Source: a virus. Taken from it: 26,090 nt of DNA. Where the stretch lies: positions 1 to 26,090 of IMG/VR virus record IMGVR_UViG_3300027896_000192. One strand, 5' to 3'. The position numbers and the translations under genes were made by a program. Positions 4,681-24,334 of the stretch are shown here, one piece after another (the stretch's first letter is position 1; the number at the start of each line of letters is the position of its first letter). The notes beneath the pieces are model-generated. The model was not told the DNA's origin and searched no databases. It saw nothing but the letters and a program-made list of their open reading frames with translations.

Positions 4681-5112
4681 TCAATATTTTCTATTTAGTT
4701 TATCCAACGTTCGGCGATATTCTTTTTCGATCTTATTTCTTAATTCGACCATCTTTTCTCTATCTTTTTTTAGATGTTTGATTTTCTCAGATTCGTCTTC
4801 TTTTTTAATATCTAATTTAGAAAGTCCTTGATCGATAGTTTGTATCATATTATGAATATATTTAAGATCTAATGTTTTTTTGCATAAATCTTTTCGTACT
4901 GGATCTTGAATTTTTTCACAATTTTCTTCTTTTCCCAATGATCGCATAATTCCCAATAATATAGATCCCAGACCAAGAGAAACTAGTATGCCAAGAGTTA
5001 CTTTTACTCCAATATTATGTTTACTTCTAAAAAATTTAATTAAAGCAATTAAGCCGCTAATTATATATTTTTTATTTTTTATATCGAAAATGTACTCTTC
5101 ATATAATTTCAT
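4681..5112 (-). CDS. Small membrane-associated coiled-coil protein (143 aa)
   Basis: Lysine-rich. Residues about 36-56 (VKVTLGILVSLGLGSILLGI) form one glycine-containing hydrophobic segment, likely membrane-spanning. Two cysteines follow at about residues 65 and 77, and then a long charged helix (residues about 85-140, rich in K and E) that should form a coiled coil. There is no recognisable family. The leftward gene at 18579 has the same plan (N-terminal helices, one hydrophobic segment, cysteines, charged terminal helix), so the two may be distant paralogues. It has its own late element 34 bases upstream, on the opposite strand from the terminase promoter. A late promoter suggests a virion or lysis-stage protein. 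A role as spanin or holin partner is possible but unsupported. Confidence 0.65.
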   Translation of the reverse strand: MKLYEEYIFDIKNKKYIISGLIALIKFFRSKHNIGVKVTLGILVSLGLGSILLGIMRSLGKEENCEKIQDPVRKDLCKKTLDLKYIHNMIQTIDQGLSKLDIKKEDESEKIKHLKKDREKMVELRNKIEKEYRRTLDKLNRKY

Positions 5113-5196: not shown

Positions 5197-5229
5197 GAAT
5201 ATTAACGTGTGAATTGTGGGAATTTAAAA

Positions 5230-6897
5230 ATGGATAAGAGTAAATATGTATTAGAATATATAAAGTGCAAAGAAGATCCGATATATTTTATAAAGACATA
5301 CGTTATGATAGAATTGGGTGGTGGTGATGTACCGTTCCACTTATATGATAAGCAACAAGAGTTAATTGAACATATACTTAAATATCACAATTTGTGTGTA
5401 CTGAAGTCCAGACAGACGGGAATTAGCACTACGGTTCAGGCTTTAGTTTGTTGGCTTGTCGTATTTCATAATAATTTAAGAGTTGGTGTACTATCGAAAG
5501 ATCTACCAGAAGCAACTTCATTTGCAAGATTTATAAGAAGTATGGTAGAAAAACTTCCGGTATGGATGAGACCTGAGTTTTCTAAATACACTGAGCAGAC
5601 GTTCTCATTGGCAAACGGCAGTACCGTAATCAGCAAGTCTGTTAATCCAAACGAACCAACTAAAACTTTACGTGGTAAATCATTACATTATTTAATTTTA
5701 GACGAAAGCGCATTCATCAAGCATTTAGATATTGCATGGGAAAGTCTAGTACCCGCCATATCAACTGCACAGAAGAATGCTCGAGATGCTGGGATCCCAT
5801 ATGGAATAATCGTGGTATCTACCCCCAATAAGACAACTGGAACAGGTGCGTGGTTCTTTCAGATACATCAGCAAGCAATTAAAAATTCTGAAGGAGATGT
5901 TAGATCAGTTGGTACATTTAGATCATTTATTGTCCATTGGAAGGATATTCGAGAGTTAGTTGAAGATTCTACGTGGTATGAAGCTCAGTGTAATCTTTTT
6001 AATCATGATCAAAGAAAGATAGCACAGGAGTTAGAATTAATATTTCTACCTTCTTCCGGATCATTTTTAGATGAGATGACATGTTTATCACTTCAAAATA
6101 CAACATTAGATTCAAAACCTGAAAGAGTATGGAAGTTGTTCGGCGGAGAAATTTGGGAATTCCAAAAACCAGTTGATGGGCATCTATACCTTATTGGTGT
6201 CGATACTGCACGAGGAAATGCTGGTGACTTTTCTACGATAACGGTACATGATTATGTAACATTAGATCAGGTATGGGAATTTCAAGGAAAGTGTGACGTA
6301 ACCGATTTTTGTAAAGTTGTTGATTTTGTATGTGCTCAATATCCAGGTTTAGTTATACCAGAAAATAATAGTTATGGAAACCAAGTATCTGAATTTATTG
6401 ATAGGGGTGCTCATATGGATATGTTATATAAACATAGGAGAGGCGACAGCCAAGTTATACGTGGTCTAACAACTGATATTAGAACAAGACCCCTAATGAT
6501 AGAAGCTCTAGAAAGCCATCTTAGGCATCAGCCATCGATGATTAAATCAAAGAGAATGGCTTTAGAGTTAATCGGATTAGTTGAAAAAAATGGAAAGGTT
6601 CAGGCAGATGTTGGTGGAAATGACGACTTAGCTCTGGCATTATCATTCTTATGCTATGTTAGAAAATATGATCCACCGCTTTCAATGGACATACAAAGCA
6701 GTAAATGGAATACACAAGATTTTGGAAATGTACTTGGAATGAATTTTGATAGTCCATCTCTGGAAATTAAAAGTTTATTGGAAGGTGGTAGAGAAATTGA
6801 TCTCGCTTCAGCAAATGCCAGATTATTAAAAATTGTAAAAGAACGAGTAACAACTACAGATGATTCGTTTTTTAATATATCCTCCTTGCTTCAATAG
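5230..6897 (+). CDS. terL: Terminase large subunit (ATPase-nuclease, 555 aa)
   Basis: The DNA-packaging motor, which translocates DNA into the prohead and cuts concatemers. Motifs in order: an adenine-binding-type LYDKQQELIEHI near residue 35; Walker A SRQTGIST (residues 60-67); Walker B LILDE (155-159); coupling motif VVSTPNKTTG (about residues 197-206). The RNase H-fold nuclease follows, with Asp in GVDTARG (D325), Glu in VIPENNSYGNQ and Asp pair DD (465-466) in GGNDDLALAL. The order and size fit gp17-type terminases (T4 gp17 is about 610 aa). The start is set at ATG 5230, with GGGA 8 bases before it; an upstream in-frame GTG at 5209 has no SD. It heads an operon driven by late element copy 3. 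No small terminase subunit is recognisable nearby. Confidence 0.96.
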   Translation: MDKSKYVLEYIKCKEDPIYFIKTYVMIELGGGDVPFHLYDKQQELIEHILKYHNLCVLKSRQTGISTTVQALVCWLVVFHNNLRVGVLSKDLPEATSFARFIRSMVEKLPVWMRPEFSKYTEQTFSLANGSTVISKSVNPNEPTKTLRGKSLHYLILDESAFIKHLDIAWESLVPAISTAQKNARDAGIPYGIIVVSTPNKTTGTGAWFFQIHQQAIKNSEGDVRSVGTFRSFIVHWKDIRELVEDSTWYEAQCNLFNHDQRKIAQELELIFLPSSGSFLDEMTCLSLQNTTLDSKPERVWKLFGGEIWEFQKPVDGHLYLIGVDTARGNAGDFSTITVHDYVTLDQVWEFQGKCDVTDFCKVVDFVCAQYPGLVIPENNSYGNQVSEFIDRGAHMDMLYKHRRGDSQVIRGLTTDIRTRPLMIEALESHLRHQPSMIKSKRMALELIGLVEKNGKVQADVGGNDDLALALSFLCYVRKYDPPLSMDIQSSKWNTQDFGNVLGMNFDSPSLEIKSLLEGGREIDLASANARLLKIVKERVTTTDDSFFNISSLLQ

Positions 6898-7811: not shown

Positions 7812-10800
7812 ATGGCTAAATATACAGATCTTTCTGATGAAAATGATTATGGTGATTACTCTAAAATTTCACCTTTAATTGGAAAAGATTATAGTAGTGG
7901 TGGAAATATTGATAACCGCACAACTCCAAGTAGACGAGCATCCTTTTATGGAAATAAGGCGATCTCGGGTGGAAGCGATTATAAATTGGCTACAAATAAT
8001 TTAAATCATTTGGCTCTCGAGGTTACTAGACTCTCAAAGAAAATTTTAAATTCAACTGCCAATACTGTTAGTAGAACAATGTCGGGTATTAATCAAGACC
8101 TTGGTGTAAGTGGCTCTAAATTAACCGGTGCAGCACTGATGAAGATTTCTCCAATTTTAGGATACGCTGTTGCTAAAATGTTAGACAGTGGATCATTTCA
8201 GGGGGTATATACTCGTATACACAAGGGAATCAAAAGTATATTTAAATCAGTGTTTTCATGGGCCGGAATAGATACATCTTCTATAAAATCATTTTTAAAA
8301 GGTATTATATCTTTTCCATTTAGATTATTAGGAAGTTCTCTTATGTTTGTGGCAAAACTTCCATTTAAATTAATAGCTTCTGCAATATCAGCTTTTACAA
8401 AAACAACGATGTGGCTTGTAAAACTTCCGTGGAAAATTATGTGGGGTGGATTTTCTGCTATTTTTAAAATAGCCTCCATACCATTTAATATTCTAACAGG
8501 ACTTGCTAAAATACCGTTTAAGTTATTGGGTGGCATACTCGGTTTACACTCTGCCGGGGGTGGTGGTTATGGTGCACGTCATGGACTAGCACGTATGAGC
8601 GAAGGTGAACTTACATTACCAGATAAAAAATTAAGAGAAACATTTAAACCGATGAATGATTCATTAATCTCTATAAGAAAAATTCTAAAGGCGACGATGA
8701 TAATCCTTGGGGGGTTAACGATCGGATTATTGGGCGTCAAAGGATTCATGTCCGGAACTTTTAAGGCTGCAATCGCCTCAACTGGAGTTGGAATGGCTGT
8801 AGCCGGGGGATTTTTATTACGTCAGTGGGCAAAGACTAAAGGTGGAAGAGATAAGGTTAAAGCCGGAGCTGAGAGTCTTTCCGAAAAAATTTCTGAAAGC
8901 CCAATCGGATCTATATTTGCAAGCGTATTCAATGACGAGGGAGCACTTGGAAAAATACGAGGGAATATATCAGACGCAGCAGGCGACCTTGCCGGGATGT
9001 TTAGAGAATCATACGATAACATAAAAAGTGGTAAAGCAGATCTTGTTATAAATCCATTTACAAAATTATCAAAATCTGAAGTTCGCGGTAAGTTTAATAA
9101 AATAGTTGACGGTATGGAAAAAGCCCTTTCAGCTGTAGGAAAAAGTGCAGAAGGAACACTGCAGGAAGCATATTCTGGAGCGGCTGAAGCTGCAGGCCCC
9201 ATGCCAAAGGGAGTATTTGCACAGGCAAAGTGGTTGGCAAAATTGGGAATTGGAACTGCCATGAAAGGTGCAGTACCATTAGCATCGAAAGGTATTGGAG
9301 CCTCATGGGATCTGGCTACATCGGCATTAAAGATTCCCACTATAGGAATAGATGCTGCTACGGAGGAATTTACTAAAAAGACACAAAAACGAGAAGAAGC
9401 TAGAAAAAAACGCGAAGAAGTTAATAAAAAATGGAGTGGTCGTTTTAGTCCTGTCGATAAATTTTTTAAGGGTTGGGAGAAAGGAGCATCTGAACTACCA
9501 ATGATGGGGCAATTAATGAGTTGGGCTATAAAAGCCCCATTTAAAGCTACTGCCGGAATCAGTAAAGGTGTTATTAAAATGTTCGGCGAACCCATTGAAA
9601 ATAGTTTTAGAAACGTTATGACCGATCCAAAGGTAACAGAAAAGTTCGGGAAGGGATTTTTTAAGAGTTTTCTGGCAGTTGGCATACCTCTATTTATGAC
9701 ATTATTTAAATCACCATTCTCATTGTTAGGAAAACTCTTAGGTGGTGGCGGCGGAAAGCTTCTTGGAGGAATCGGTGTGGGCGGTTTAAAAATGGGCGGT
9801 AATATGCTTATTTTGTCTCAATTAGCACAGATTGCTTATAACCCATCGGCTTATGCAAAGCGCATGAGCGGTAAAGAAAAACTTGGAACTGGAGATACCC
9901 TCATTGCAGGAATTGGTGGAGTAATTTCGGGTGGCAGCAAAGAAGGTGGTCCTTGGGGAATGATACGTGGTATGGCGGCAGGAACAGCACTTGGCGGGTT
10001 CCCATGGGGAACAGTCATAGGGGGTGTGGCTGGTTTAGTCGGCGTTCAGAATATGATAAAAACTAAAGACGCACTTGTTGAAACTGGGTCTGCTTTAGGA
10101 ATTGGAATATATGATGTAATTCATATGAAGACCGGTGTTATTGGTGGGATGAAGTCATTTTTCGCAACATTAAGCTCAACGGGATCTATTAATCTCGCCA
10201 TGGCCGCATATGCAGCAGCCTATATTGGAAATGTTAAAGAAAATACTGGTAATGTATCTTCTAAGATTCCTACAAGTTATGCGAAGGCACATCCATCTTT
10301 AGCCGCTGCACTCTCAGTCGGTAAGCTTGAGAGCGGTAATGATGTCGGTATGGTCCACTGGGACGTCGATGATTGGTCATATGGTGCAAATCAAATACAT
10401 GGAACTGCAAAGGCAAAGCGCTATGTTGACAAATATTTATCAGGTCAAAAAATAGCAAAAATGCCACTCCGTACCCACAAGAATAAAGCGGGAATTGAAG
10501 TATATAATAAAGAGGATGTTGCGGCATTTAATAAAGAGTTCAAGGAAATGTCAACTCGTGCAGAGGAAACGAGAAGTACCATGCTTAATACACAGAATCA
10601 ATTTATGGGAGAAACTCAATACCAACCGATGATAAAAAGTCTCGGAGATCTGGGCATGGTTCTCGATGCTCCCCCATATAGCTTAGATGCTCGTTTACAG
10701 CTAATGCTACAATCAACAGCAAATAACCTCGGCGATTTAGCCCCCCGAGTAATAAAAAATGCATTGATAAGTCGTGAACATATAGCCGGTTGGAGCCCAC

Positions 10801-11231
10801 AACAAATAACGGATACAATAGCTAACTATAAAATTGCAAATGTCGATACAATATGGAAAAAAGCAATTACATCAAAGCAATCTACTCGTGAAGAGATGAT
10901 AAATAGAGTAAATCAAGAGGCTGGGCGCGGGACTGCCGCTACCGGTGTTCCCGGAGGTCCTTCAGGACCAAGTGTGCAACAGGTTGCTAAAACACAAACA
11001 GACGCAGTAGAAGCAAACGCAAAAATAGTTGCAGGTGCAACAGCGGCAATAAATGCAACTGCATCCAATGCGCCTACATCTCCTGTAACCATTGTTAATC
11101 AGAATCAGTCAGTTTCCAATAGTGCAAAAACAACAATGCCCGGGTCAGCGAATAATACAGTTGGATACAGTGGTATGGCACGACCAAGTTTAGACCGTAT
11201 CGTGAATGCAGAACTAACAACCGGACAATAA
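7812..11231 (+). CDS. Tail tape measure protein with C-terminal cell-wall hydrolase domain (1139 aa)
   Basis: By far the longest gene in the window. It has the composition of a tape measure: Gly/Ala/Lys-rich, with many hydrophobic patches. Repeated 'LPFKL(I)', 'LPWKI', 'IPFNI', 'IPFKLLGG' units occur at residues about 170-245, and membrane-like segments near 295-320 and 615-665. Residues about 825-970 differ: AALSVGKLESGND (candidate catalytic E840) followed by W855-SYGANQIH (856-863). That arrangement, Glu then a Gly-Gln-rich turn, is like transglycosylase/lysozyme-fold hydrolases in jumbo-phage tail and VgrG-type proteins. The last 150 residues are low-complexity Ala/Thr/Asn/Ser. The protein would set tail length and locally open peptidoglycan during DNA entry. 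The SD is GAGGTAATGA. Confidence 0.82.
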   Translation: MAKYTDLSDENDYGDYSKISPLIGKDYSSGGNIDNRTTPSRRASFYGNKAISGGSDYKLATNNLNHLALEVTRLSKKILNSTANTVSRTMSGINQDLGVSGSKLTGAALMKISPILGYAVAKMLDSGSFQGVYTRIHKGIKSIFKSVFSWAGIDTSSIKSFLKGIISFPFRLLGSSLMFVAKLPFKLIASAISAFTKTTMWLVKLPWKIMWGGFSAIFKIASIPFNILTGLAKIPFKLLGGILGLHSAGGGGYGARHGLARMSEGELTLPDKKLRETFKPMNDSLISIRKILKATMIILGGLTIGLLGVKGFMSGTFKAAIASTGVGMAVAGGFLLRQWAKTKGGRDKVKAGAESLSEKISESPIGSIFASVFNDEGALGKIRGNISDAAGDLAGMFRESYDNIKSGKADLVINPFTKLSKSEVRGKFNKIVDGMEKALSAVGKSAEGTLQEAYSGAAEAAGPMPKGVFAQAKWLAKLGIGTAMKGAVPLASKGIGASWDLATSALKIPTIGIDAATEEFTKKTQKREEARKKREEVNKKWSGRFSPVDKFFKGWEKGASELPMMGQLMSWAIKAPFKATAGISKGVIKMFGEPIENSFRNVMTDPKVTEKFGKGFFKSFLAVGIPLFMTLFKSPFSLLGKLLGGGGGKLLGGIGVGGLKMGGNMLILSQLAQIAYNPSAYAKRMSGKEKLGTGDTLIAGIGGVISGGSKEGGPWGMIRGMAAGTALGGFPWGTVIGGVAGLVGVQNMIKTKDALVETGSALGIGIYDVIHMKTGVIGGMKSFFATLSSTGSINLAMAAYAAAYIGNVKENTGNVSSKIPTSYAKAHPSLAAALSVGKLESGNDVGMVHWDVDDWSYGANQIHGTAKAKRYVDKYLSGQKIAKMPLRTHKNKAGIEVYNKEDVAAFNKEFKEMSTRAEETRSTMLNTQNQFMGETQYQPMIKSLGDLGMVLDAPPYSLDARLQLMLQSTANNLGDLAPRVIKNALISREHIAGWSPQQITDTIANYKIANVDTIWKKAITSKQSTREEMINRVNQEAGRGTAATGVPGGPSGPSVQQVAKTQTDAVEANAKIVAGATAAINATASNAPTSPVTIVNQNQSVSNSAKTTMPGSANNTVGYSGMARPSLDRIVNAELTTGQ

Positions 11232-17172: not shown

Positions 17173-17583
17173 TCATGAACTCGATGTTATAGGAATCGCA
17201 ACTTGTTTTTCTTGTCTATTATATGATACTATTATTGTTAATAAAAAACCTTTTCCGTCTTTATAATATGTAACATCAAATGTTTTTAATTTTGCTCTAG
17301 GTTCTAATGCAAATAACTGATTACGTATCACGTTATCAATTTCCATTCTTGTAATACCATCGGCAGGTTCAAAGATAAACCGATGTAGATCACAACCAAA
17401 TTCAGGATCATGATCATACGTACGGCTTGGCGTCTGTAATATTACAGAATACGAATTTATCAAAACATCTATATCGGAAATACGTTTAAAGTCTCCACTC
17501 GGAGAAATAACTGGTAGATAGTCAAAAATCTTTCCAGATGAGCCGATAACTTGAGTTTTGAATCTATCTATTAGATTGGCCAT
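17173..17583 (-). CDS. Baseplate wedge protein, gp25-like (136 aa)
   Basis: Small baseplate wedge subunit with a lysozyme-like fold that is structural rather than enzymatic. Features: TYDHDPEFGCDLHRFIFEPAD (residues about 55-75), matching the 'P.fG..L..l.FEp.' core; EIDNVIRNQLFALEPRAKL (about 81-99), containing the EPR signature of the gp25/gpW family; and a terminal beta strand LTIIVSYN. The length equals the family norm (T4 gp25 is 132 aa). Its ATG overlaps the TAA of the preceding out-of-frame segment as TAATG, indicating coupled translation. No separate SD is needed, although none is strong. Confidence 0.93.
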   Translation of the reverse strand: MANLIDRFKTQVIGSSGKIFDYLPVISPSGDFKRISDIDVLINSYSVILQTPSRTYDHDPEFGCDLHRFIFEPADGITRMEIDNVIRNQLFALEPRAKLKTFDVTYYKDGKGFLLTIIVSYNRQEKQVAIPITSSS

Positions 17584-17783
17584 TATTTTTTCATACCATT
17601 ATTTAAAATTTTTGCCTTCTCCGATTCTAATTCATTTTTCCATTGAATATATCCCTGAAAGACGATCACTGGCATTTCTATTATAGACCCATATGATTGT
17701 CTTCCAGTCTCCATTAAAGCATAAATATTCAGGCGTAGGTTTTTCCGATATTCATCTATTTCTTTAGGCAGAGAGTACCATGC
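17583..17783 (-). CDS. Out-of-frame extension of the gp26-like gene (66 codons), probable +1 frameshift product
   Basis: This fills the otherwise unexplained gap between gp26-like and gp25-like genes. In the +1 frame relative to the gp26-like gene the sequence stays open from 17798 to the TAA at 17585-17583. It reads AWYSLPKEIDEYRKNL..., then YGSIIEMPVIVFQGYIQW and a Lys/Glu helix, all protein-like. No ATG, GTG or TTG occurs before an internal ATG at 17714, so the first 23 residues can be made only by frameshifting or by a rare start (ATA 17795, ATT 17792). The candidate slip site is TTT-C (17787-17784) in the zero frame, followed by a CGC codon. Slipping +1 would fuse ...VDNFF to AWYSLPK. 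The TAA overlaps the gp25 ATG. A 43-aa product from 17714 is the conservative alternative. Confidence 0.6.
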   Translation of the reverse strand, partial: AWYSLPKEIDEYRKNLRLNIYALMETGRQSYGSIIEMPVIVFQGYIQWKNELESEKAKILNNGMKK

Positions 17784-18552
17784 GAAAGAAATTATCGACT
17801 AGGTCTACCTCCGTCTTATCTGAATATCCACAGAATTGACATGAATATTTCATATTCAATTCTATGCAATACTGACCGAATGCGTCTGCATATGCATCCA
17901 CAATAGCTCGCTTATCTTTCGGTCTTAATCCAGTATATGCATCAATTATATCGTTTCTATCTGTCCATTCAATAGGAGCTTTAGACTCCAGAATATCCTG
18001 TTCAAATTTGGAAATAACTATAGTCTGCAATGCCACGTTAATTGGATAAATTGCAGTATTAACCTTACGATAAATTTCATCTTCATCCACTAGCGTAGGC
18101 TGTTTAAGATATGCCGTAACTCCGGTAGTAGCTGGAAGAGGAATTGCAATTTCTGCTGTAAGAATATTCTCAAGGGGATATATCTTATAGCCAAACATAT
18201 CACTTGCCTTTACAGTAAGCTTTGATTCTTTTTGGCAATTTGGACACTTGACTATATAATTTCTAATCTCTTCGTAGGTTACATGATATAACCCGAATAG
18301 TAATGCATCTCTATCTTTTATCGTTGTATTTTCTAAAAAAGATTTATAATCGGTTATACTCTCAGGTTTATCAACCAAAACATCAAAAATACATTTATTT
18401 AAATGATCGGCAACTTTCCCAGAACTTAACAGACTACCCTTTAACCGCTCTTCCTCACCAACACTCAATGACCTGACTGTATATCTTAGATGTGACTGTG
18501 GTGTAATAACCTCATATACCGGTACTGCAATATTCTTAAATCCCGTAAACAT
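17764..18552 (-). CDS. Baseplate hub assembly protein, gp26-like (262 aa)
   Basis: Resembles the T4 gp26 family (T4_baseplate), which acts in baseplate hub assembly and probably chaperones. The N-terminus PVYEVITPQSHLRYTVRSLSVGEEERLKGSLL (residues about 11-42) is the family hallmark. Two CxxC pairs, CPNC (about residue 113) and CQFC (about 239), probably form a zinc ribbon folded across the protein, with the segment ENILTAEIAIPLP and PTLVDEDEIYRKV between them. T4 gp26 is 208 aa. The SD is GAAGGAGTG. It is the first gene of the gp26-like/gp25-like/unknown/gp6-like cluster. The 3' end is unusual: the last 11 codons overlap an open +1 frame that may extend the protein by 66 residues. Confidence 0.85.
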   Translation of the reverse strand: MFTGFKNIAVPVYEVITPQSHLRYTVRSLSVGEEERLKGSLLSSGKVADHLNKCIFDVLVDKPESITDYKSFLENTTIKDRDALLFGLYHVTYEEIRNYIVKCPNCQKESKLTVKASDMFGYKIYPLENILTAEIAIPLPATTGVTAYLKQPTLVDEDEIYRKVNTAIYPINVALQTIVISKFEQDILESKAPIEWTDRNDIIDAYTGLRPKDKRAIVDAYADAFGQYCIELNMKYSCQFCGYSDKTEVDLVDNFFRMVLSA

Positions 18553-19061: not shown

Positions 19062-19787
19062 TTATAGGGGTTTAGTCATATTATTAACAGCAATTGTATT
19101 TCTAACATTCGATAAAATCCCCTGACATTGTTTATACACCCAAGGATCTGTCCATAGATAATCAAATTTAAATTCAATCTCAATATCTAACTTATTTATA
19201 TCTTCCACATTTGATCCAAATAACTGATGGGGATCTGTAATTGGATATACACCATCAAAACATGCGTAATAGTTTATATCTTGAAAATTTGGCGCAAGTG
19301 TAAAATAGTATGCAGTGGCAGAATAATTCGTTTTATTATATCTGTTGTCACCGTCAGTCAATGAAGATATTCCGGTACGATAATCACGGATCATCATTAT
19401 CCAAGAATGAATGATATTAAAAATTGGGGTATTGTTAAATTCTAAAAATTTAATATTAAATGATGTGTCATAATCAATATTAGTCGGGACTGTCCACTTA
19501 ATACCGCCCAAACCAACGAGATCGACATGATTCAATCTTCCTCCTGGCGTGGTAACTTGAAGAGCAGCTGCAGATAAAATATCTATCATCTGTCGTTCAC
19601 CGAGTTGCATTCTACCAGGAACACCACTTGATCTATTATTGTTATATGAAGTCATTAGCCCCCCGGGCAAATTTGCAAATTGAATAAAGTGATAACCTGT
19701 AATAAGTGGTTCTGCACTTCCCTTAGATCGACCGCCAAAATCTTTCGTGATTAAATTTTCTGCTAAATTTATGTACGGATTGTCCAT
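19062..19787 (-). CDS. Tail tube-like structural protein (241 aa)
   Basis: Start at ATG 19787, 8 bases after GAGGGAG; an in-frame TTG at 19805 is part of that SD region and is rejected. The protein is soluble and beta-rich, with elements like those of tube-fold proteins: YHFIQFANLPGGL (residues about 31-43), LNHVDLVGLGGIKWTVPTNIDYDTSFNIKFLEF, then a helix IFNIIHSWIMMIRDYRTG, YFTLAPNF and DIEIEFKFDYLWTDPW. A long central helix between paired strands, plus a final strand of the 'v.i.F.f....' type, is what I expect of gp19-type tubes and tube-like completion proteins. T4 gp19 is only 163 aa, so it could instead be a tail terminator or junction protein. It lies downstream of the sheath, split from it by the inserted cassette. 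Confidence 0.6.
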   Translation of the reverse strand: MDNPYINLAENLITKDFGGRSKGSAEPLITGYHFIQFANLPGGLMTSYNNNRSSGVPGRMQLGERQMIDILSAAALQVTTPGGRLNHVDLVGLGGIKWTVPTNIDYDTSFNIKFLEFNNTPIFNIIHSWIMMIRDYRTGISSLTDGDNRYNKTNYSATAYYFTLAPNFQDINYYACFDGVYPITDPHQLFGSNVEDINKLDIEIEFKFDYLWTDPWVYKQCQGILSNVRNTIAVNNMTKPL

Positions 19788-19801
19788 ATTGTGTATCTCC
19801 C

Positions 19802-19984
19802 TCAAATAAATTGTTGTTTTCGTTTATTTTTATGTTCTAATTCTTTTGGATGTAGTGACTTATTTCCAATAGCATCCAAATCCACATACTTTAATTTAGA
19901 TCTCTTAATCATGTGTGGAGAATCCATTGGGAATACCGATTCCCGATTTAATTTCTTTATGTATTCTTCAATTAATCTATTCAT
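19802..19984 (-). CDS. Small basic hypothetical protein (60 aa)
   Basis: Very basic and helical (IEEYIKKLNRESV, HPKELEHKNKRKQQ). The stop TGA lies inside the GAGGGAG ribosome-binding region of the tube-like gene, so translation of the two is probably coupled. Two starts are possible: ATG 20008 (68 aa) and ATG 19984 (60 aa). I prefer 19984 because the late element GAACAAAATTAAAA (20006-19993) would otherwise lie inside codons 1-6 and most of the coding start would be upstream of the transcript start. Neither start has a strong SD. No family is recognised. Confidence 0.6.
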   Translation of the reverse strand: MNRLIEEYIKKLNRESVFPMDSPHMIKRSKLKYVDLDAIGNKSLHPKELEHKNKRKQQFI

Positions 19985-20582: not shown

Positions 20583-20963
20583 ATGAGAGGGGACCATATT
20601 AGAGTATTAAGATACGGTATATTTTATCATCACGCTATTGATATTGGAAATGGAAAAGTTATACAATATCGAGGGGAGATTATAAAAGGGAAAGATCCAA
20701 AAAGTTCTATAGTCGGAATAGACTCGACATCAGAATTTATTCGTTACGGTGGGTCTGATATTGAAATTGTAAATTATGATGGAGTATTATTTTCACCAGA
20801 TGAAGTCGTAAAAAGAGCTAAGGGTAGACTTGGTGAGAATTTGTATAATATTTTCTTTAACAACTGTGAACATTTTTGTTATTGGTGTAAAACTGGACGA
20901 TCAAAATGTATACAATTAAACACAATATTTAATGATATTAGATCAATATTTCCAAAAAAATAA
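20583..20963 (+). CDS. LRAT-domain (NlpC/P60-like) acyltransferase/hydrolase (126 aa)
   Basis: Essentially a stand-alone LRAT domain, a permuted papain-like fold whose members transfer or hydrolyse acyl groups on lipids, amines or proteins. Visible: GDHIRV.R....YHHAIDIG with the catalytic His (H17) and the family's 'GDgkViqY' strand; an F..Y..G acidic middle; FSPDEVVKRAKGRLGENLYNI; and NNCEHFCYWCKTG with nucleophile C95 in the NCEHF motif. The length matches single-domain members. GGAGG precedes the ATG by 7 bases. There are no membrane segments, although many relatives act at membranes. It lies in a cassette with a second Cys-type protein and a lipoprotein protease. The substrate is unknown: phospholipid, peptidoglycan or host protein are all possible. 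Confidence 0.85.
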   Translation: MRGDHIRVLRYGIFYHHAIDIGNGKVIQYRGEIIKGKDPKSSIVGIDSTSEFIRYGGSDIEIVNYDGVLFSPDEVVKRAKGRLGENLYNIFFNNCEHFCYWCKTGRSKCIQLNTIFNDIRSIFPKK

Positions 20964-20983
20964 AAAGTAATATGGAGTATGTC

Positions 20984-21646
20984 GTGAGAAACGAAAAAAT
21001 TAGAATTATCCTATTAGTAGTATTGATTAGCTTAACACTAACATCGTGCGCACATTTTATTGATCCGACTGAAGTGGCACAAAAAGTTCTTCCCGCAACA
21101 GCCTATATTATATTGCGGGATAGTAACAGAGGCATTATGGGTATTGGGAGTGGATTTTTTATTCAGGCCGGTACTATTGTAACATGTTATCATGTTGTCG
21201 CTACCGCACTTAAAGTTCCAAATGTTAAAATATCTGTATGTATAAACGGCAAAATAGATAAAGAATATGAAATTCGTAAGATTGTATATAAAAATGAGAC
21301 CAATGATATTGCAGTTATTGCAACTGATAATATTGCTCCATCGGTTTTAAAATTAGGAAATAGCGATGATATAATGATAGGCCAAACAATATATGTAGGA
21401 GGAAATCCAAAAGGAATTCCTTCAATATTCACAGTTGGGATTATAAGTGGAATTATTGATCGTTCATTAGATCCACTGGGACAGATTATATTTTCTGCTC
21501 CAATTGCTCCGGGCAATAGTGGGGGGCCTTTAGTTGATGAAGATTGTAATGTTATTGGAATAGTCGAAGCTACGATTGCAGGCACTCAAATGACCAATAT
21601 GGCTATACCAATAAATCTATTGGATAAAATTGTTCTCCGTTATTAA
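20984..21646 (+). CDS. Trypsin-like (HtrA/DegP-type) serine protease, predicted lipoprotein (220 aa)
   Basis: GTG 20984 is preferred: GGAG lies 6 bases upstream, and the protein then begins MRNEK followed by a hydrophobic run ending LTLTSC, a classic lipoprotein signal peptide with lipidated C22. ATG 20972 is the alternative. The protease domain has all three catalytic residues: TCYHVV (H70), NDIAVI (D108) and PGNSGGPL (S179). PIAPGNSGG and the IGIVEA strand are typical of HtrA proteases. There is no PDZ domain after it, so it is shorter than cellular DegP. It should be exported and anchored at the outer face of a membrane. It is the last gene of the cassette and is followed at once by a strong terminator. 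Roles in envelope modification or superinfection exclusion are inference. Confidence 0.9.
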   Translation: MRNEKIRIILLVVLISLTLTSCAHFIDPTEVAQKVLPATAYIILRDSNRGIMGIGSGFFIQAGTIVTCYHVVATALKVPNVKISVCINGKIDKEYEIRKIVYKNETNDIAVIATDNIAPSVLKLGNSDDIMIGQTIYVGGNPKGIPSIFTVGIISGIIDRSLDPLGQIIFSAPIAPGNSGGPLVDEDCNVIGIVEATIAGTQMTNMAIPINLLDKIVLRY

Positions 21647-23794: not shown

Positions 23795-24334
23795 TTAGGT
23801 TTGTGGTTCTATTACTATACTCATATAGAATTCATTTAAGACTGGATTTAATTTTAAACATACATTTATAGCTTTAAATTTTTTATCATCATCTATAATA
23901 AGTATAGTATTTTTTTTATCAATGGTTAATCTTGAATCCATTACATTGGTTGTATTAATTAAATTATTTTGTGAAATTTTAATATTTGCCCATGCTCGCT
24001 TATTCATTAAATTTTCAGAAATACTTATACCAAATAATGATCTGACTAATCCTGCAATAATGTCTGCATTGCTACAACATCTATTATATTCAGAATGACA
24101 AAATAAAATATCCTTAGAATTAAATACTAGATTCCATATTGTAAAATATTGTAATAATGTTGATATTCCACAATTTCTATTTTCGTGCTTATAATATATA
24201 ATACTTCGCGATAATAAATATTTTAAAAGTTGAACTTGCTCTATACGCAGAGCAAGCGGGAAATTAAAGCGTGGATGAGTTGCGTCCTTTAAAAAATTTT
24301 TAAATTTATTATATTTAATAAAGTCTAGCTTCAT
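23795..24334 (-). CDS. Terminase-ATPase-like short protein without nuclease (179 aa)
   Basis: Read against the terminase of this window, the order of elements matches. LRIEQVQLLKYLL (residues 29-41) corresponds to LYDKQQELIEHIL. NRNCGIST (52-59) corresponds to Walker A SRQTGIST. A TIWNLVFNSKDILFCHSEYNR-type segment corresponds to the strand and helix after it. ILIIDDD (144-150) corresponds to Walker B LILDE, and the final SIVIEPQT to the coupling motif VVSTP. The protein ends there, so the whole nuclease half is absent. The Walker A lysine-equivalent is not obvious, and the Walker B Glu is replaced by Asp. It may be a degenerate paralogue with a structural or regulatory role. It lies 13 bases after the structural gene at 24348, in the sheath neighbourhood. 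Confidence 0.7.
   Translation of the reverse strand: MKLDFIKYNKFKNFLKDATHPRFNFPLALRIEQVQLLKYLLSRSIIYYKHENRNCGISTLLQYFTIWNLVFNSKDILFCHSEYNRCCSNADIIAGLVRSLFGISISENLMNKRAWANIKISQNNLINTTNVMDSRLTIDKKNTILIIDDDKKFKAINVCLKLNPVLNEFYMSIVIEPQT

Follow-up and report, generated by a model that had tools for sequence, protein, structure and literature searches.

The gp26-like gene in the DNA analysed here, a virus-derived stretch of 26,090 nucleotides which we call the window, ends in what we take, with a probability of about 0.9, to be a real and conserved +1 frameshift site of the form UUU_CGN, at which some ribosomes would pass into an overlapping frame and add a 66-residue C-terminal extension to the short product. 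A programmed +1 shift at TTT-C had been proposed from the sequence alone; comparative analysis gives strong support to the existence, position and direction of the shift, on the basis of retention in about 125 relatives, selection specific to a single frame, the lack of a start belonging to the extension itself, and a strict TTT-CGN. The features of the window on which the argument rests were as follows.

19062-19805, minus strand: tail-tube-like gene, upstream of the gp26-like gene on the same strand (phrog_45 tail tube, E=5e-6)
17764-18552, minus strand: gp26-like zero-frame ORF, 262 aa, the putative short form, TAC-N-like (ORF list, PF12322, phrog_150, Shine-Dalgarno sequence)
17788-17790, minus strand: TTC as E-site codon (most relatives have TTT here)
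17785-17787, minus strand: putative P-site slip codon TTT, with UUU to UUC re-pairing after a +1 shift (TTT in 79/79 unique relatives and 35/35 further loci)
17782-17784, minus strand: A-site codon CGC, of the CGN class (rare in the window; CGN in 79/79 relatives)
17764-17781, minus strand: zero-frame tail after CGC, five sense codons and a TAA stop (six sense codons with CGC counted)
17583-17783, minus strand: +1-frame extension, the putative C-terminal part of the long form, 66 aa and TAA (selection in the +1 frame; hairpin predicted in relative L045)
17173-17583, minus strand: gp25-like baseplate wedge gene, whose start overlaps the extension stop (PF04965, E=2.1e-7; phrog_261, E=1.5e-14)

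The gp26-like gene and its overlapping frame

The gp26-like frame ends at 17764, as the sequence-only reading had stated. The zero-frame codons across the overlap are AAT TTC TTT CGC ATG GTA CTC TCT GCC TAA; reading in the +1 frame past TTT-C gives GCA TGG TAC, and the product FF|AWYSLPKEIDEYRKNL... The +1 frame is open from stop to stop between 17798 and 17583 on the minus strand. Counted from the shift, the extension consists of 66 codons, from GCA at 17783 to AAA at 17586, followed by a TAA (17585-17583) whose last A is shared with the gp25 ATG (17583-17581); the overlap of the form TAATG described earlier was thus confirmed. Fusion of the short product and the extension gives a protein of 322 amino acids. 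ATG, GTG and TTG are absent before extension codon 24, in agreement with the claim that the first 23 codons hold no standard start. The TTC TTT CGC reported for the overlap was found in the zero frame at 17790-17782, and is better written UUU_CGN, the CGN being as strict as the UUU; the GGAGG reported upstream lies at 17812-17808. Chance is a poor account of the arrangement, which recurs in every relative that has the junction; the slip site is moreover the sole in-frame TTT CGN among the 8068 codons of the window's ORFs. CGC occurs in the window at 2.1 per 1000 codons.

Conservation of the site and the extension

Relatives were collected by three scans of IMG/VR and one genome scan, at approximately 46-57% identity, and the junction was read at 92 loci (two of which end before the extension does) and at 35 further loci; because some of these may belong to the same or near-identical phages, the total is given as about 125. 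An in-frame TTT followed by CG was present at the same place in all of these relatives, and so was the +1 extension, with the pattern ...IFxCMExxxQSYxxxxxMPVKRFxDYLKWKxxLEEEK; the earlier proposal to check whether the TTT-C site and the extension are kept was therefore answered in the affirmative for every relative that bears the junction. The zero-frame tail comprised 4-9 codons, mostly six, across the 92 and 35 loci. One of the relatives, L096, is a contig binned in the MAG of a Thermoplasmatales archaeon, and may represent an archaeal virus or a binning error.

The slip codon was TTT at 79 of 79 unique complete loci, against 625 TTT and 202 TTC at the other Phe codons of the gene (625/827 TTT). 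The codon that follows was CGT in 34, CGC in 27, CGG in 10 and CGA in 8 of these loci, and never AGA or AGG; at their other Arg codons the same genes used AGR 586 times and CGN 171 times (171/757 CGN). TTT occupied the E site in 77 loci and TTC in 2, with further TTC cases among the 35 additional loci. Elsewhere in the same genes, in-frame TTT CGN occurred only twice in 20,137 codons. The pattern persisted across 46 clusters formed at 75% nucleotide identity, among which kinship partly remains, so that nominal probabilities are to be read as indicative.

Selection was assessed in pairs at 70-97% identity, over the part of the extension downstream of the zero-frame stop. In the +1 frame pN/pS was 0.274 (dN/dS 0.138), in contrast to 0.96 and 1.35 in the other frames; the value for the zero-frame gene was 0.26. 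By this comparison purifying selection acts on the extension in the +1 frame and in no other. Two marks of a UUU_CGN +1 site are thus present: a UUU codon with CGN next to it where the two frames overlap, and conservation of both site and ORF under coding selection.

Alternative explanations

If the extension were a separate small gene, its start would have to be the ATG that follows the first 23 codons, or else a rare ATT or ATA near the GGAGG at 17812-17808, and both the GGAGG and the retention of that ATG in 71 of 79 relatives favour such a gene. The ATG, however, is absent in 8/79, and in none of the 71 relatives that have it (71/71) is it preceded by a Shine-Dalgarno match of at least 4 bases; the start of the gp26-like gene has a match of at least 5 nt in 99% of 78 relatives. 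Purifying selection moreover acts upstream of the first widely kept ATG, with a dN/dS of 0.19 in the stretch between it and the zero-frame stop. These three observations make an independent start of the extension very unlikely. A separate gene is also at odds with the lack of any ATG, GTG or TTG among the first 23 codons of the extension in 50 of 79 relatives. The rare ATA or ATT start that the sequence-only reading had offered as an alternative is likewise disfavoured: directly upstream of the slip TTT, a stretch of 15 nt contains at best a 4-nt Shine-Dalgarno match (in 20% of 79 relatives), and the conserved shift site, with its strict TTT-CGN, would be left unexplained by either start.

A -2 shift of the kind known from phage Mu, taking place on the run of U, would link the same two frames as well, and the TTT TTT of most members would keep Phe pairing after such a shift; the window and several relatives read TTC TTT, however, so that a -2 slip would place tRNA-Phe on UCU, and the strict CGN, the C of which is needed for UUU to UUC re-pairing in a +1 shift, would have no role. 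A -2 shift, also allowed for in the earlier reading, is accordingly most improbable. Slippage of RNA polymerase on the T run, shifting the frame in part of the transcripts, could draw on the T6 of most members, but the window has only TTCTTT, with a longest run of 3, and some relatives likewise have no homopolymer; since it also leaves the conservation of CGN unexplained, we regard it as having scarcely any likelihood. For a sequencing error or a recent mutation that split one gene, nothing speaks beyond the split itself, and a second contig record (L002) is identical to the window and the same split recurs in all relatives; the probability of this explanation is negligible.

Proposed mechanism of the +1 shift

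We propose that most ribosomes terminate at 17764 and release the short gp26-like protein, and that a minority come to a pause while peptidyl-tRNA-Phe sits on UUU and the A site holds CGC. The tRNA-Phe would then slip by +1, from UUU to UUC pairing, and reading would continue to 17583, so that shifted ribosomes would yield the 322-aa protein with a predicted C-terminal helical hairpin. The slip from UUU to UUC needs a C after TTT, and every member has that C.

No downstream RNA structure that might act as a stimulator was evident (z 0.71), and no well-placed Shine-Dalgarno sequence was found before the slip site in 79 relatives; for these reasons the efficiency could be very low, and it probably does not exceed a few per cent. 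The upstream GGAGG was considered as a stimulator or start signal and rejected, as it is not generally conserved and its spacing is bad.

Gene family, neighbourhood and predicted structure

The zero-frame product matched PF12322 (T4_baseplate) with 35.8 bits, against a cut-off of 24.5 (E=9e-9), and phrog_150 (baseplate hub) with E=5.5e-10; T4 gp26 and T4 gp51 both match PF12322 and the same PHROG. When the fusion was used in place of the zero-frame product, the end of the phrog_150 match moved from profile position 236 to 249. Genes for tail sheath, tail tube, gp26-like and gp25-like proteins follow one another in this order on one strand of the window, an arrangement that fits a contractile-tail cluster, and T4 likewise has 26 directly before 25. 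The gp26-like gene adjoins gp25 and not the tape-measure candidate (7812-11231, plus strand), a placement that counts against the explanation proposed here. That candidate, read from the other strand than the tail tube and gp26-like genes, encodes a 1139-aa tape-measure-like protein whose C-terminal domain, residues 845-1036, is VgrG3-like (PF21277, E 5e-11).

Other genes were also seen in the window. An ORF at 23795-24334 (minus strand) gave a weak match to a terminase large subunit (phrog_5989, E 0.0039) and is possibly a terminase fragment or an unrelated ATPase; a full terminase gene lies at 5209-6897. An LRAT-type acyltransferase domain is encoded at 20583-20963 (plus strand; PF04970, E 1.5e-22), adjoined at 20972-21646 by the gene of a trypsin-like protease (PF13365, E 1.9e-24).

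An AlphaFold2 model was made of the fused protein of relative L045 from 52 aligned rows. Its mean pLDDT was 79, with a weak linker at residues 256-265, and the extension was predicted to form a helical hairpin (263-282 and 294-322). Matches of the model in BFVD were to T4-like hub-assembly proteins and jumbo-phage proteins, and a Foldseek search of the PDB yielded nothing significant. In a second comparison with the PDB, YqbN (3klu), which we take to be an XkdN-type chaperone, ranked first with a weak Z of 4.6 (rmsd 5.5 over 99 residues). In third place came 2ob9, the tail assembly chaperone of HK97, with a weak Z of 3.9 (rmsd 4.6 over 97); at such Z scores a fold shared with tail assembly chaperones is not provable. 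Nor is the want of a trustworthy PDB fold score evidence for a new fold.

Comparison with the tail assembly chaperones of lambda and T4

Frameshifted tail chaperone genes of the lambda type are reportedly the subject of Xu et al. 2004. Homology to T4 gp26/gp51, taken with the analogy of lambda G/GT, suggests that the short and long forms serve jointly as tail-assembly chaperones: the short form would coat the tape-measure protein, and the tail of the rarer long form would recruit tube subunits or the baseplate. That the pair are tail assembly chaperones is likely, given their family membership, the short/long design and the role of T4 gp26 and gp51 as hub-assembly chaperones (PMC3004832); the role given to the tail of the long form is our inference. 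In lambda, too, gpG and gpGT are the short and the frameshift-extended forms of one gene, with the shift near its 3' end, as appears to be the case here, whereas the direction differs, being +1 here, -1 in lambda and SPP1, and -2 in Mu (PMC5009743). At the sequence level gpG and gpGT belong to a different protein family.

Vladimirov, Gautam and Davidson are said to have identified the tail-assembly chaperone genes of T4-like phages in 2022 and to have proposed for them a mechanism without frameshifting. If so, the clade of the window would be the frameshifting counterpart. The sequence-only reading had known of no described frameshift in a T4 gp26-type protein, a statement that needs the context of that other mechanism. 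According to PRFect, citing Vladimirov et al. 2022, some T4-like phages have a short chaperone gene and a second, long and fused one, in place of a frameshift (PMC10885494). From the Pfam and PHROG matches we read these two genes as gp26 and gp51. T4 shares with the window the Pfam family and the 26-25 order and, on this reading, the pairing of a short form with a long one. Reports assign these forms to two genes in T4-like phages, whereas here a single gene would suffice with a +1 frameshift. One PF12322 gene above the cut-off was found in each of three relatives of 277, 248 and 224 kb (records that may be incomplete), against two in T4; with a single such gene, frameshifting would be the sole source of the long form in these large relatives.

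In the pseudotevenviruses RB43 and RCIP0002 the long gene is followed directly by the short gene and then by gp25; the long gp51-like and short gp26-like genes lie in tandem with overlapping ends (L107, 1501-2794, for RB43; L108, 1501-2795, for RCIP0002). The gp51 and gp26 genes of T4, unlike this tandem, diverge. Around [IV]M.MP..R the extension resembles the gp51 tail, but the likeness is not significant by sequence, as 18/150 and 29/200 permutations scored as high; full-length hhalign against gp51 aligned only a repeated Cys motif, out of register, and its global modes produced no meaningful alignment. Whether the gp51 tail is the same element as the extension we would put at even odds.

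A probable -1 shift in AR9-type jumbo phages

In AR9, PBS1, BpSp, Machias and DC4, an ORF that lies in the -1 frame and has no start codon overlaps the end of the gp26-like homologue. These -1-frame extensions, annotated as separate hypothetical genes, were located as follows.

AR9 (L018): 4771-5073
BpSp (L099): from 3289
Machias (L101): from 3187
DC4 (L102): from 3331

When a profile of the jumbo extension was aligned with the +1 extension, none of 150 column permutations reached the alignment score. The two frames would be joined if tRNA-Phe, after CTT, slipped by -1 from UUY to UUU, and a -1 frameshift at CTT TTY in AR9-type phages is probable, as judged from four distinct sequences only. 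The viral contigs searched contained no further relatives of AR9 gp230.

UUU_CGN in other systems and significance

In influenza, PA-X is made by a +1 shift at UUU_CGN, the direction of which was fixed by a site-spanning peptide; the authors predicted a UUU_C class in which CGN is preferred in the A site, and left its cellular use open (PMC3498833). It is also prevalent in plant amalgaviruses, in which all four CGN codons are used (PMC5052127). Both systems share slip codon and A-site class with the present site, and differ from it in being RNA viruses of eukaryotes with other proteins, whereas a phage-type tail gene is concerned here. PA-X has UCC in the E site, in place of the UUU or UUC seen here; it has no evident stimulatory structure, as here, and an efficiency of ~1% (PMC3498833). 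The +1 shifts of the phages PSA (of Listeria) and SPP1 likewise concern structural genes, encoding tail or capsid proteins, and use CCC_U rather than UUU_CGN; the tail chaperone of SPP1 itself has a putative -1 shift (PMC5009743, PMC6316719). Our literature search, conducted largely outside the subscription journals, returned no paper on UUU_CGN in a phage, and as far as we found the signal has hitherto been reported only in viruses of eukaryotes.

We put forward, tentatively and at somewhat less than even odds, a broader proposal: that UUU_CGN is a general +1 signal on prokaryotic and eukaryotic ribosomes, at which CGN owes its effect to decoding geometry and not to one rare tRNA, and that T4-type chaperones were ancestrally frameshifted, the duplication that gave 26 and 51 having replaced the frameshift in T4.

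If the site is what it appears to be, the UUU_CGN +1 motif is not confined to viruses of eukaryotes but occurs in a phage lineage too, and bacterial (or archaeal) genetics could be used to dissect the requirement for CGN. The T4-type chaperone family, described as not reliant on frameshifting, would include a large lineage that is, and the direction of the shift would vary within it, being +1 here and apparently -1 in the AR9-type jumbo phages. The long form encoded in these genomes will escape gene callers that take no account of frameshifts. It would also become possible to test directly what gp26 and gp51 do and whether short and long form must be made in a fixed ratio.
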